Assembly: GCA_001784155.1 (NCBI GenBank)
Contig: MFPL01000010.1
Coordinates: 1 to 41,661 of the forward strand
Direction of reading: 5' to 3'
Length of the DNA stretch: 41,661 nucleotides
Origin: Candidatus Levybacteria bacterium RIFCSPLOWO2_12_FULL_41_12
GTDB taxonomy: Bacteria; Patescibacteriota; Microgenomatia; Levybacterales; UBA12049
The position numbers were made by a program, and so were the translations under genes. Below the pieces are notes generated by a model. The model was not told the DNA's origin, did not search any database, and saw only the letters and a list, made by a program, of their open reading frames with translations. This document shows, piece by piece, positions 10,396-33,580 of the stretch. Position 1 is the stretch's first letter; each line of letters begins with the position of its first letter.

Positions 10396-10436
10396 CCCCC
10401 GCCTGCAATGCCTTCGGCAAGCCGATGGCGGGCAGG
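10396..10436. repeat. REP-like palindrome, family 2, copy 1
   Basis: GC-rich element starting CCCCCGCCTGCAATGCC and ending GCCGATGGCGGGCAGG. It shares its frame with elements at 33308-33348 and, on the other strand, 33103-33135 inside topA. It lies between tRNA-Thr and tRNA-Tyr. Confidence 0.6.
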
Positions 10437-16719: not shown

Positions 16720-16874
16720 GCCGATAGTATGAGCCTCGGCTCATAGCAACTAACAACTAGTGAGTGGGTAAGTCAGCCGGGGTGGAGGGAGCTTTGCGGT
16801 GCCCAAATACAAAAACATATGTTCGGCTCGCTTCGCTCGCCTCAAGTATTGGTATACTAGTATATCAGTCCCAA

Positions 16875-16907
16875 TCTCCGGAAACCAATTTCGCGCGCGC
16901 TCGCATC
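16875..16907. repeat. Detached copy of the 3' tail of the TrpR-like gene
   Basis: The stretch TCTCCGGAAACCAATTTCGC and the following GCGCGCTCGCAT repeat, almost base for base, 17809-17840 in the last codons of the TrpR-like gene. The RAYT gene lies between the two copies. Confidence 0.75.
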
Positions 16908-16916
16908 TTCTTTATT

Positions 16917-16949
16917 CTAGCCTCGCAAGGCCTCGCCTTGCGAGGCTAG
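16917..16949. repeat. REP palindrome, family 1, copy A
   Basis: Perfect 14-bp arms CTAGCCTCGCAAGG / CCTTGCGAGGCTAG with a 5-nt centre. The RAYT stop codon TAG is formed inside its right arm. Confidence 0.9.
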
Positions 16950-17632
16950 ATCTCATCTAGGGTGATGGAGTTTATGAGCTCCGGCTCTTCTTCGAGCTCT
17001 TCCACAAAAGCCCGATAGGAGAGCAAGGGATGCTTAGAAGAAAAAAAGGAGAGAATCTCTGAGGGATTAACCCATTCTGTTTTTTCCATGTCAAGATATC
17101 TCTTGTAAGATGACGGTTGCCCTTCTCGCAAGGCCTCGCCTTGCGAGGCTAAAGCCTGTTTATGAATGTAACGGGATAAATGCAGAAACTGTTTTTCATT
17201 TTCAATCAGCGCTGCTTTATAAACACCCTGATACAGGGATCCGACCCTTTTATATTTCTTATTAAAATACATAGTATATCTTGTGCCTAAAGAGTTCATA
17301 AAACTATCAATGCTATTTGGATTTTTTTGTTTGATGAAAAAATGGAAATGATTTGGCATTAGGCAGTAAGCAAGAAGTGTGATTTCATCCGCAAAGTTGT
17401 TAAGTCTAATAAGTTTTAAAATTTTGTCTCTTTCCTTGTAGGAAAGGGAGGGGTTGGAAAGTTTATCGTAAAGTTCTTTTTCATTTTTGGGGGACAAATA
17501 CTCTTTAAGATAGGAGAGAAATACAGAGTAATCCTGTCCGTCAAGAAATATTTTCCTTTTCTCGACCCCACGATTATAAATATGGTAGTACCCGTTTTCT
17601 AAATATTGCTTTACACTGTTTTTTGCTGGCAT
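16946..17632 (-). CDS. REP-associated tyrosine transposase (RAYT, IS200/IS605 Y1 family)
   Basis: Single-strand DNA transposase of the HUH/Y1 type that acts on REP palindromes. The start reads YYHIYNRGVEKRKIF, the HUH motif is MPNHFHFFI (about residues 141-149), and the catalytic Tyr region is YTMYFNKKYKRVGSLYQG, followed by LSRYIHKQ. The 228-residue length is in the family range. REP palindromes lie at its 3' end (copy A, supplying the stop codon), inside its frame (copy B, encoding ALASQGEALR where relatives usually have the NPV-type motif) and just upstream (copy C). No other transposon gene is present, as expected for a domesticated RAYT that mobilises short non-autonomous repeats. Confidence 0.88.
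   Translation of the reverse strand: MPAKNSVKQYLENGYYHIYNRGVEKRKIFLDGQDYSVFLSYLKEYLSPKNEKELYDKLSNPSLSYKERDKILKLIRLNNFADEITLLAYCLMPNHFHFFIKQKNPNSIDSFMNSLGTRYTMYFNKKYKRVGSLYQGVYKAALIENEKQFLHLSRYIHKQALASQGEALREGQPSSYKRYLDMEKTEWVNPSEILSFFSSKHPLLSYRAFVEELEEEPELINSITLDEI
17125..17147. repeat. REP palindrome, family 1, copy B (inside the RAYT gene)
   Basis: Perfect 9-bp arms CTCGCAAGG / CCTTGCGAG with the same CCTCG centre as copy A. Translated in frame. Confidence 0.85.
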
Positions 17633-17658
17633 ATAAAAAGCCTAGCATAAAAACCTCC

Positions 17659-17685
17659 GCCTCGCAAGGCGTCCCCTTGCGAGGC
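17659..17685. repeat. REP palindrome, family 1, copy C (upstream of RAYT)
   Basis: Perfect 11-bp arms GCCTCGCAAGG / CCTTGCGAGGC, centre CGTCC. It is the reverse complement of copy D in topA. Outer CCTAGC/GCTAGG segments can extend the stem. Confidence 0.88.
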
Positions 17686-17788: not shown

Positions 17789-18229
17789 TTATGATTCTTC
17801 AGAAAAGTCTCCGGAAACCAATTTCGCGCGCGCTCGCATATCGCTCCGCGCGCGCATTGCCAGATCGAGAGGCTTAAGCATAGATTCAATTTTATTGAAG
17901 AGTTGGCGGGTTCTCTCTTTTTTTGAGATTTTCGAAATGATTTCCTTATAGATTGATCCGGCATTTTGCCATATATTTTTATGAACCCTGACTGTTTCTC
18001 GACTCACCTTCAAAGAGGTTTCTATATTTGAGGTAGGGTAGTTATTTTCAAGCATTAGATGAAGCATTAGACGCTTTCCCAGCATTATTTTTTCCTCTTT
18101 AGTTAAGAAATCATTTAGAAAACCTTCTATTTCATATGAATTCTGAAGAGAGGAAATTAGAGAAGCAAAATTTTCCCTTAACTCATGATCCAAATTTTTG
18201 TCGATTGGTCTCCTTGAGGCTCTTGGCAT
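17789..18229 (-). CDS. TrpR/YerC-family transcriptional regulator
   Basis: 146 residues; the middle carries the Trp-repressor fold: FLTKEEKIMLGKRLMLHLML (about 45-64) and the helix-turn-helix ...SNIETSLKVSRETVRVHKNI (about 71-90), which matches TrpR/YerC relatives (family pattern SxxxV/S-RET-V). No trp genes are near, so the ligand may not be tryptophan. Its promoter contains GTATAC-CA-GTATAC overlapping the -10, a candidate operator for autoregulation. The basic tail (AMRARSDMRARAKL) is encoded by GCGC-rich DNA that is duplicated at 16875-16907. Confidence 0.8.
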   Translation of the reverse strand: MPRASRRPIDKNLDHELRENFASLISSLQNSYEIEGFLNDFLTKEEKIMLGKRLMLHLMLENNYPTSNIETSLKVSRETVRVHKNIWQNAGSIYKEIISKISKKERTRQLFNKIESMLKPLDLAMRARSDMRARAKLVSGDFSEES

Positions 18230-18242
18230 ATCGGCGATGTCC

Positions 18243-18272
18243 AGTATACTGGTATACCTGACATGTTGTCAA
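18243..18272 (-). promoter_or_regulatory. Promoter and candidate operator of the TrpR-like gene
   Basis: Minus strand TTGACA (18267-18272), 18-nt spacer, TATACT (18243-18248). The palindrome GTATACCAGTATAC lies over the -10 (18243-18257). Confidence 0.7.
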
Positions 18273-18967: not shown

Positions 18968-18995
18968 TGTTTTTTAGTATACAATTTAGTATACT
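18967..18995 (+). promoter_or_regulatory. Promoter of rpmB
   Basis: TTGTTT (18967-18972), 17-nt spacer, TATACT (18990-18995); rpmB ATG follows 8 nt later. Shares the palindrome AGTATACAATTTAGTATACT (18976-18995) with the opposite promoter. Confidence 0.75.
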
Positions 18996-23985: not shown

Positions 23986-24085
23986 TTTTTTGCGCTGAGG
24001 CGCATTTCTCTTGCATCTTTTCGCAGGAAAAGACGCCCAAAACTGTTTGCAAGCCAATCGAGCTATTTTTGTTCGCTCACTCTAT

Positions 24086-24144
24086 CGGGTAATTTCACCC
24101 CTTCCTCAACAAACTTGTGAGGAATTCCCCTGAATCATTCACTC
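24086..24144. repeat. 59-bp dispersed repeat with covarying hairpin, copy 1
   Basis: Begins CGGGTAATTTCACCCC and carries TTCCTCA/TGAGGAA arms (24102-24108/24118-24124). The second copy is at 33522-33580, where the arms are TTCCGCA/TGCGGAA. The 307-nt gap before mreB otherwise shows only a GCGCCTCAGCGC palindrome near 23992 and a short heptad repeat. Confidence 0.8.
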
Positions 24145-30867: not shown

Positions 30868-31149
30868 ATGAATCCCGTTAGAGACCGATTCTATTATGTT
30901 TACATACTTCAGAGTTTGAAGAATAAACATTGGTATACAGGCTACACGAGTGATTTACGCAAGCGTTTCGACGAGCATCAGATGAATAAATCAACATATA
31001 CGAAAGGTAAAGGGCCATTTAAAATAATCTATTACGAAGCTTCATTGCATGAGGAGGATGCAATGGCGAGAGAAAAATATCTCAAATCCGGGATGGGCAA
31101 AAGATATTTGAAAAACAGGGTGAAACGCTCGCTGGCTCTAACGGGATGA
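30868..31149 (+). CDS. GIY-YIG nuclease-like protein bounded by terminal inverted repeats
   Basis: 93 residues with FYYVYILQSLKNKHWYTGYT (GIY and YIG strands), DLRKRFDEHQ and REKYLKSGMGKRYLKNR, the usual single-domain GIY-YIG layout. The reading frame begins ATGAATCCCGTTAGAG (MNPVRDR) and ends CTCTAACGGGATGA (LTG, stop). These ends form perfect 12-bp inverted repeats at 30872-30883 and 31136-31147. The stop overlaps the topA ATG by 4 nt, so the right-hand repeat also supplies the topA start codon. The family is a nuclease; the boundary repeats suggest a small mobile unit, which is inference. Confidence 0.88.
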   Translation: MNPVRDRFYYVYILQSLKNKHWYTGYTSDLRKRFDEHQMNKSTYTKGKGPFKIIYYEASLHEEDAMAREKYLKSGMGKRYLKNRVKRSLALTG

Positions 31150-33278
31150 AGAACTTAGTAATTGTCGAAAGTCCTACGAAGGCACGAACAATCGGGCGTT
31201 TTTTGGGAGCGGATTTTGAGGTTATTGCCTCAATGGGGCATATTTATGATTTACCAAAGAGCACGCTTGGAGTTGATACCCAGCACAATTTTGATCCCCA
31301 ATACGAACTTGTTAAAGACAAAAAAAAGACCATAGATACCCTAAAAAAAGCGGCAAAAACTGCGGACAGAATTATTTTGGCAACAGATTTGGATAGGGAA
31401 GGAGAAGCAATTGCTTATCATATCGCTCAAAATTTAGGTAAAAAAGATGCTGAGAGGATTGTTTTTCACGAAATCACAAAAGAAGCGATCGATGAAGCGC
31501 TTGCCTCTCCTAAGAAAATAAACCAGGATTTGGTAGATGCGCAGACAGCGCGGCGCGTTCTCGACAGATTAGTAGGTTATAAGCTTTCTCCTATTCTTTG
31601 GCAGAAAGTAAGACGCGGCTTGTCCGCAGGACGCGTGCAGTCAGTAGCGCTCCGCCTGATTGTCGAGCGCGAGCGGGAAATTGAAAAATTCAGAAAGGAA
31701 AACTATTGGACGATAATAGTTTCCCTTTCAACAACTAACAAACAACGATTAACCGCTAAAAAGTCAGAAATTAGTAGTGAGAGGTTGGAAGTTGGCGGAA
31801 CGCCTTTTGATCTTACGGAAATAAAGGGCGAGAAAATAGAAATTAATGAGAAATTAGATTTATATGATGGGCAGTACAAGTTCACAAAAACAACCATTGA
31901 TACCGAAAAACGAGCAAAAGAAATCGAAGCAGATTTAGCCTCGCAAGGGGACGCCTTGCGAGGCTATGTGGTGTCCGATGTTTTGAAAAAAGAAACCAGA
32001 CGCACTCCTCCGCCTCCCTATACCACTTCCACCCTTCAGCAGGACGCTGCGAGGCGGATGGGTCTCTCGGGGAAAAGGACAATGCAGCTGGCACAAAAAC
32101 TTTATGAAGAAGGCTATATTACTTATCACAGGACTGATTCGGTCTCGATGGCTGAGGCAGCAAGAAAGCAAATGGCAGACTATGTAAAGAAAGAGTTTGG
32201 TGAAAAATACTTGTCTACCAAGCCTCGATATTACAAAGCTACACAAAAAAACGCACAGGAGGCACACGAAGCAATAAGACCGACGAAAGCTAGCATTCAG
32301 CACGAAGCAGTCAGTGCTGAGCTTGGTCCGCAGTTTGGCCGGCTTTATGAGCTCATATGGAGAAGGGCAATTGCGACACAAATGGCAGACGCAATTACGG
32401 AATCGACAAGTGTTTTGGTAGATGCGGGTAAGGGTGCGTATACCCTTAAGGCCAACGGGTCCGTACTTGTTTTTGAGGGGTTTTTAAAGATCAATCCCTA
32501 TGCTTTGGAAGACAAGAGACTGCCTGATTTTATTGCCAAGGAAAGCCTGGATTTTATTTCCGCACTATCAGAAGCGCATGAGAGCCTGCCACCTCCGAGG
32601 TATAACGACGCTTCAATCATTAAAACTCTTGAGGAAAAAGGAATCGGAAGGCCGTCAACTTACGCCACAATTATTTCTACAATTGAATCTCGAGGATACA
32701 TTGAGCGGGAAGAAGGAAAGTTTAAGCCGACAAGTGTAGGATTTGCGGTAAATGATTTTTTAGTAGCTAATTTTTCAAGCGTTGATGATATTCCATTTAC
32801 TGCTCTTATGGAGGATGAGCTAGACGCGGTGGCTAATGGCACAAAGAAATGGGTACCTGTAGTTGAAGAGTTTTATACTCCTTTTGAAAAATTATTAAAT
32901 GGCATGAAAGATGTTGCCAGGGTAAAAATTGCGGTTGAGGAAACAGATGAGGATTGTCCAGAGTGCAAAAAAGGAAATCTCGTTATTCGAACCGGAAGGT
33001 TTGGAAGATTCTTGTCTTGCGGAAGGTTTCCGGATTGTAAATTCACCAAGCCTTTAGTTCAAGAAACTAATTTAACTTGCCCAAAATGCGGAGATGGAGC
33101 CAGCCCGCCATCGCTACGCTCAGGCGTTAGCGGGCGAGGAAAAATTGTGATCAAAAAGACCAGAAGAGGCCGAAAGTTCTATGGTTGCAGTAATTACCCC
33201 GCCTGCACATTTGCGGCATGGAAGCTCGAGGATATAAAGAAAGAGCAGCCTGCTCCAGAGGTTCAACCTAATGCCTGA
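31146..33278 (+). CDS. topA: DNA topoisomerase I (type IA) with repeat-derived inserts
   Basis: Relaxes negative supercoils. The Toprim domain begins LVIVESPTKARTIGRFLG, with ATDLDREGEAIAYHI near 80; the active-site Tyr is in YEEGYITYHRTDS near 325. Two zinc-finger-like C-terminal repeats follow (CPECKKGNLVIRTGRFGRFLSC; CPKCG...FYGCSNYPAC). Three inserts unlike the family are encoded by repeats: a heptad palindrome (residues ~195-218), REP copy D (~264-274, LASQGDALRG) and a family-2 palindrome inside the last zinc finger (~650-664, DGASPPSLRSGVSGR). All keep the frame. 710 residues. Its start codon lies in the right terminal repeat of the GIY-YIG unit. Confidence 0.95.
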   Translation: MKNLVIVESPTKARTIGRFLGADFEVIASMGHIYDLPKSTLGVDTQHNFDPQYELVKDKKKTIDTLKKAAKTADRIILATDLDREGEAIAYHIAQNLGKKDAERIVFHEITKEAIDEALASPKKINQDLVDAQTARRVLDRLVGYKLSPILWQKVRRGLSAGRVQSVALRLIVEREREIEKFRKENYWTIIVSLSTTNKQRLTAKKSEISSERLEVGGTPFDLTEIKGEKIEINEKLDLYDGQYKFTKTTIDTEKRAKEIEADLASQGDALRGYVVSDVLKKETRRTPPPPYTTSTLQQDAARRMGLSGKRTMQLAQKLYEEGYITYHRTDSVSMAEAARKQMADYVKKEFGEKYLSTKPRYYKATQKNAQEAHEAIRPTKASIQHEAVSAELGPQFGRLYELIWRRAIATQMADAITESTSVLVDAGKGAYTLKANGSVLVFEGFLKINPYALEDKRLPDFIAKESLDFISALSEAHESLPPPRYNDASIIKTLEEKGIGRPSTYATIISTIESRGYIEREEGKFKPTSVGFAVNDFLVANFSSVDDIPFTALMEDELDAVANGTKKWVPVVEEFYTPFEKLLNGMKDVARVKIAVEETDEDCPECKKGNLVIRTGRFGRFLSCGRFPDCKFTKPLVQETNLTCPKCGDGASPPSLRSGVSGRGKIVIKKTRRGRKFYGCSNYPACTFAAWKLEDIKKEQPAPEVQPNA
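31728..31799. repeat. Heptad palindrome inside topA
   Basis: Left arm CAACAACTAACAAACAACG...; right arm TTAGTAG, TGAGAGG, TTGGAAG, TTGGCGG. The arms are complementary and the whole is translated. Confidence 0.7.
31936..31966. repeat. REP palindrome, family 1, copy D (inside topA)
   Basis: Perfect 13-bp arms TAGCCTCGCAAGG / CCTTGCGAGGCTA with centre GGACG, the reverse complement of copy C next to RAYT about 14 kb away. Confidence 0.92.
33103..33135. repeat. REP-like palindrome, family 2, inside the topA zinc finger
   Basis: GCCCGCCATCGC...GCGTTAGCGGGC imperfect palindrome, related to 10396-10436 and 33308-33348 on the other strand. Confidence 0.75.
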
Positions 33279-33307: not shown

Positions 33308-33348
33308 CCCCGCCTGCAATTGCCTGAGCAAAGCGATGGCAGGCAGGG
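33308..33348. repeat. REP-like palindrome, family 2, downstream of topA
   Basis: CCCCGCCTGCAATTGCC...GCGATGGCAGGCAGGG, matching the copy in the tRNA cluster at 10396-10436. Confidence 0.75.
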
Positions 33349-33425: not shown

Positions 33426-33521
33426 ATCTTAAAGATTTCCTTTTTCTTCTCTTGTTCCGACCAGAGAAGCAGAAACTCTCGCCAAGTCTTGCCTCATGCA
33501 TTCAAATTCTCGTTCGTTCTT

Positions 33522-33580
33522 CGGGTAATTTCACCCCTTCCGCAACAAGTTTGTGCGGAATTCCCCTGAATCACTCGCTC
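33522..33580. repeat. 59-bp dispersed repeat with covarying hairpin, copy 2
   Basis: CGGGTAATTTCACCCC start, TTCCGCA/TGCGGAA arms at 33538-33544/33554-33560. It is the partner of 24086-24144. Confidence 0.8.

Follow-up and report, generated by a model that had tools for sequence, protein, structure and literature searches.

REP-associated tyrosine transposases (RAYTs) act on repetitive extragenic palindromic (REP) sequences. The TnpA-REP enzyme recognises single-stranded DNA folded into a hairpin and cuts near that hairpin (PMC8266576), and typical RAYTs carry an NP(L/V)(R/K)xG motif next to the catalytic tyrosine (PMC2817692). In TnpA-REP subclass 2.4 (RAYT group 4) REPs are inserted in the transposases' own genes with the frame kept, generally between the HuH motif and the tyrosine (PMC6006769). 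The presence of REPs in numerous genes and the use of their feet as stop codons were reported in 2013, the Rickettsia palindromic elements being the best-known case (PMC3733652). Here we describe a locus of this kind in Candidatus Levybacteria bacterium RIFCSPLOWO2_12_FULL_41_12, a member of the candidate phyla radiation (CPR). The stretch analysed, here called the window, is positions 1 to 41,661 of contig MFPL01000010.1. We consider it probable that the window holds a REPtron, consisting of a RAYT-type HUH/Y1 transposase and a cognate 31-nt palindrome, which writes REPs into its own gene and into neighbouring genes.

The locus resembles the gammaproteobacterial RAYT/REP systems in its Y1 transposase, in its flanking cognate palindromes, which change with the transposase, and in that their presence in a genome tracks the gene (PMC2817692, PMC8266576). 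It differs from them in having 4-15 copies per genome, many of which are inside genes, in flanks that are mostly direct as judged by the loop, and in lacking both a conserved GTAG and the NP(L/V)(R/K)xG motif. With subclass 2.4 it shares flanking REPs, in-frame REPs within the transposase gene and long perfect stems, of which one type has a double foot (PMC6006769). Compared by features, the locus is distinguished by its TAGC foot, by its CPR lineage and by the place of the internal copy, which encodes residues ~161-171, after Y155, whereas in subclass 2.4 insertions fall between HuH and Y.

The intragenic GTAG/CGTC REPs and the Rickettsia palindromic elements are likewise short in-frame palindromes in housekeeping genes, and the feet of the former also give TAG stop codons (PMC3733652). 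Compared by description, the palindromes described here differ from both in being linked to a RAYT that can be identified and whose palindrome variants are specific to the locus, and in occupying matching positions of tsaE, argS and folA across genera. The IS200/IS605 family (IS608, ISDra2) also has the HUH/Y1 fold and a hairpin on either side of the gene, but here the unit is present in a single copy, solo palindromes occur elsewhere and the protein is longer. The occurrence of REPs in RAYT genes, and in other genes too, is thus already published (PMC6006769, PMC3733652). New features are the CPR setting, a self-site that is fixed after the tyrosine and changes in concert with the flanks, a foot other than GTAG, and the repeated use of sites in essential genes. 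A literature search, with most subscription journals outside its reach, returned no paper joining Patescibacteria with repetitive extragenic palindromic sequences.

The transposase and its palindromes

The transposase gene (16946-17632, minus strand) encodes a RAYT-like protein of 228 residues. An initial annotation of the window described three perfect palindromes belonging to one family, one upstream of this gene, one within it and one at its end, and this observation is confirmed. Palindrome C, the upstream REP (17659-17685), is perfect with 11-nt arms and has its centre 40 nt before the ATG. Palindrome B, the internal REP (17125-17147), is perfect with 9-nt arms and is centred at +496 from the start codon. 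Palindrome A, the downstream REP (16916-16950), is perfect with 15-nt arms and a 5-nt loop, and lies over the transposase stop codon. Its foot is the TAG stop of the minus-strand gene (GATGAGATC-TAG-CC) and palindrome B is read within the protein as ALASQGEALRE, both as the initial annotation had it.

The 31-nt consensus of the palindrome is TAGCYTYGCAAGG-N5-CCTTGCRARGCTA. Allowing up to three mismatches, the pattern CTCGCAAGG-N5-CCTTGCGAG has four matches in the window and none in 100 dinucleotide shuffles, which rules out a chance origin of the window palindromes. Copies in whole genomes were counted by pattern searches. With up to two mismatches the same pattern occurs at exactly four sites in the 853,027-base genome (reversed-pattern control, 0), all of them on the window's own 43-kb contig. 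The fourth copy, which the initial annotation had missed, is palindrome D (31936-31966, 13-nt arms), found in frame within topA and translated there as LASQGDALRG.

The protein matches the Pfam family Y1_Tnp (PF01797, 2e-12) and falls below the cut-off of the NCBIfam equivalog NF047646 (REP-associated transposase), with 37 bits against 80. Both histidines of the HuH motif (H95-F-H97) and Y155 are invariant in 47 relatives. Y155 is probably the catalytic tyrosine and Q159, at Tyr+4, probably the third ligand; the residue at Tyr+4 is Q throughout the clade of the window transposase. An AlphaFold model built with the 47 relatives has a mean predicted local distance difference test score (pLDDT) of 90.1. 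Its top fold match in the PDB is 4ER8, the structure of a RAYT in complex with a REP hairpin (E 1.1e-5, TM-score 0.59 by target length), followed by the IS608 and ISDra2 transposases, while a sequence search of the PDB with the protein gave no match. The Pfam and fold matches uphold the earlier assignment to the RAYT-like HUH/Y1 transposases, and the nearest relatives, from Levybacteria/Levyibacteriota, uphold that to a CPR lineage.

Palindrome B encodes a loop directly after the catalytic helix (146-162). Residues 161-170 have a pLDDT of 64 and lie between blocks above 90, this being the sole internal stretch of low confidence; on the model, the loop is predicted to be disordered.

The internal palindrome in relatives

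Relatives were collected from Levybacteria, Daviesbacteria, Woesebacteria, Gottesmanbacteria and other groups. Many of them have palindromes at -40, at exactly +496 and just 3' of the stop codon, and in other clades the in-gene palindromes are at +160, +452/467 or +653. The clade-wide use of the same site rules out that the RAYT gene received one recent insertion. The internal REP had been regarded as an isolated and unusual insertion, a view that is not supported, since +496 is a recurrent site and in-frame REPs in tnpA-REP genes were already published. Five close relatives (loci L008, L016, L017, L022 and L035) have no palindrome at the internal site. On a protein tree built without the loop, the presence of the internal palindrome requires at least 15 changes; the copy is therefore repeatedly gained, lost or left to decay.

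The copies were compared in ten loci whose internal and flanking palindromes are both strong. On average, the internal copy shares 23.0 of its 27 positions with the flanks of its own locus and 11.1 with those of other loci; none of 10000 permutations reached the own-locus agreement. From locus to locus, different Watson-Crick pairs are found at stem positions 8-13 of the internal copy, indicating compensatory change. That internal and flanking copies change together may be due to replacement driven by the RAYT, to recombination among the copies, or to selection acting on an internal site that has a function.

The loops of the REP copies point in the same direction in L007 (internal and upstream copies), L009, L012, L016, L019 and L040, and are inverted in L041. 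Judged by the loop, the copies are thus mostly direct, where an inverted orientation is expected of REPs flanking a RAYT. In the foot, TAGC is conserved at -15 to -12.

Palindromes in other genes and genomes

Co-occurrence of palindrome and transposase was examined in 73 genomes of the same family with the pattern GCAAGG-N3-5-CCTTGC, which matches 100 sites there, compared with 7 for the reversed control. The mean number of palindromes is 4.7 in genomes with a close RAYT and 0.28 in those with none. In genomes at least 90% complete the means are 6.0 (n=8, close RAYT) and 0.04 (n=24, none), with p ~1e-6, a value that ignores shared ancestry. Three genomes with a close RAYT lack the pattern, and two of these carry variant palindromes at the RAYT. 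The TTCCAAGG variant is limited to genomes G008 and G009 and the TCAAAAGG variant to G009, G033 and G041, all of which have close RAYTs; both variants are mostly located at the RAYT itself. Copy number rises from the four found in this genome to as many as 15 in relatives. The strict 29-nt consensus, in a phylum-wide search of 380 genomes, is present only in this one; because palindrome variants are genome-specific, this pattern is uninformative on other families. The presence of REPs goes with that of a RAYT, with exceptions such as G012. Palindromes frequent in genomes without a RAYT, which the initial annotation had named as contrary evidence, were not found: the palindromes track close RAYTs, with G012 as the one clear exception.

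A sample of 87 distinct sites, taken among the matches listed and biased to perfect cores, was placed relative to genes. Forty-nine of the 87 lie in open reading frames (ORFs) of at least 120 residues, as against 78.5% of random positions in the same loci; genes are therefore avoided, yet often hit. The codon phases of the in-ORF sites are 24/22/3, the frame that holds the TAG foot being nearly absent (p 1e-5). The host genes, named from sequence, include argS, carA, cysS, folA, folD, tsaE, galT, fmt, uvrC and topA, and palindromes specific to one genome turn up at unlinked loci there.

The clearest case is topA (31146-33278, plus strand, 710 residues), which encodes DNA topoisomerase I and is the only topA match found in this genome; the segment of palindrome D is absent from 29 of 29 related topA genes. 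In cysS the palindrome is present in G060 and absent in all 16 other genomes. Four genomes (G005, G012, G023 and G060) have palindromes at the same place in tsaE, and in argS a palindrome is found in G023 and G025, with a variant form in G033; most relatives have none in either gene. The site of G037/G038 and those in murT are perhaps native coding sequence and were left out of the main evidence. Two tandem palindrome-like units, resembling translated REP doublets, are seen in tsaE of G005 (L123) and G060 (L281) and in folD of G037 (L202).

Proposed mechanism and alternative explanations

In the mechanism we propose, the RAYT, by analogy with TnpA-REP, probably recognises the hairpin in its folded, single-stranded form and would cut and rejoin DNA near the hairpin foot. 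Copies of the REP would thereby enter single-stranded DNA, including the RAYT's own gene and neighbouring genes, so that mobility of the REPs would be driven by the RAYT. The repeat has a stop codon in only one of three frames per strand, and because of this in-frame copies could survive and be translated. The survivors would be copies that fall in loops exposed on the protein and alter the net length by a multiple of three, and they would be read as LASQGxALRG or SLARxxLARL, peptides that are presumably neutral. The internal copy would change together with the flanks if the RAYT, or repair between copies, keeps substituting the variant that the RAYT recognises.

Several observations weigh against this proposal. 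There are just four copies of the palindrome in this genome. The net protein gain at clear sites is 3-8 residues (9-24 nt), which is less than the 31-nt repeat; therefore insertion may replace target DNA, or else the element ends elsewhere than it seems to. No clean empty site that would define these ends is found at the DNA level, because the relatives are only ~70% identical at the protein level. The NP(L/V)(R/K)xG motif is absent from the window protein, which has QALASQG at that place, and deeper relatives retain its NP. The GT[AG]G or GTAG foot 5' of the stem is not conserved, G being present at -16 in just 6 of 41. Finally, G012 (84% complete) has five palindromes and no detected RAYT, and five further RAYT-negative genomes have one palindrome each.

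The internal palindrome might instead be an autoregulatory site, at which the RAYT would bind the REP in its own gene or mRNA and so limit expression, selection keeping this copy cognate with the flanks. The exact +496 position in many diverged relatives, the match between internal and flanking copies and the compensatory pairs of the internal stem all fit such a site. Its presence is scattered on the tree, however, with 15 changes; some close relatives do without it, other clades use other positions, and the same repeats are also found in unrelated housekeeping genes, so that we regard autoregulation as unlikely. A wider version of the REPtron proposal takes the in-gene REPs to be a maintained part of the CPR RAYT system, with a cognate hairpin at a fixed place in the transposase's own coding strand co-evolving as a means of self-regulation or as a homogenising donor, and the same enzyme steadily writing short translated peptides into the essential proteins of a reduced genome. 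We hold this version to be rather doubtful.

It is very improbable that the unit is an IS200-like insertion sequence, with A and C as its left- and right-end hairpins and B accidental. The Y1 transposase with a hairpin on each side, the 32-bp direct repeat that flanks the block and the fold matches to IS608 and ISDra2 would suit an insertion sequence. The unit is present once in the genome, however; a solo palindrome occurs in topA and many more in relatives, IS200/IS605 elements do not generate large duplications of their target (PMC2817692), and the protein has 228 residues against about 150 (PMC6006769). We give hardly any credence to the idea that the in-gene palindromes are stem-forming coding sequence which arose by local mutation or chance and not by insertion. 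A net gain below the length of the element fits this idea, and some short-armed sites, such as those in groEL-like and murT-like genes, do look native, but against it stand the same genome-specific palindrome at unlinked loci, the 100 sites against 7 control matches and the uniform absence of the segment from the topA and cysS relatives.

Other repeats in the window

A 32-bp exact direct repeat flanks the RAYT and its three REPs. Its left copy is at 16875-16906 and its right copy at 17808-17839 (both plus strand), the latter in the 3' end of a trpR-like gene (17789-18229, minus strand). There are only these two copies in the genome, and the repeat may be the footprint of the block's arrival. 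Near the trpR-like gene there are GTATAC-type palindromic motifs at ~16850-16866, 18243-18257 and 18977-18993, which are possibly the operators of this gene. Outside the RAYT region, a 60-nt direct repeat is present at 24085-24144 and 33521-33580, the two copies being 90% identical.

A second, unrelated family consists of a ~40-nt imperfect palindrome with the core GCCATCGCTATGCTCAGGCATT, present in five copies in the genome (loci L341-L345). One copy (33099-33138, plus strand) is translated inside topA (ASPPSLRSGVSGRG) and further window sites are at 33308-33347 and 10397-10436. Four of the sites are in open frames (topA, a carB-like gene, ychF and a 159-residue frame), and alignments to solved structures show that the carB and ychF segments are insertions of ~16-17 residues. 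No enzyme is linked to this family. As it too is translated, the genome seems to tolerate translated palindromes in general.

Implications

For protein-coding palindromes such as the Rickettsia elements we know of no agreed mobilising enzyme. In the system described here a translated palindrome family can be linked to a RAYT, one variant at a time, in dozens of genomes, and it therefore becomes testable whether RAYTs write peptides into proteins. It also means that in minimal CPR genomes repeated in-frame insertions are tolerated by housekeeping genes present in single copy.
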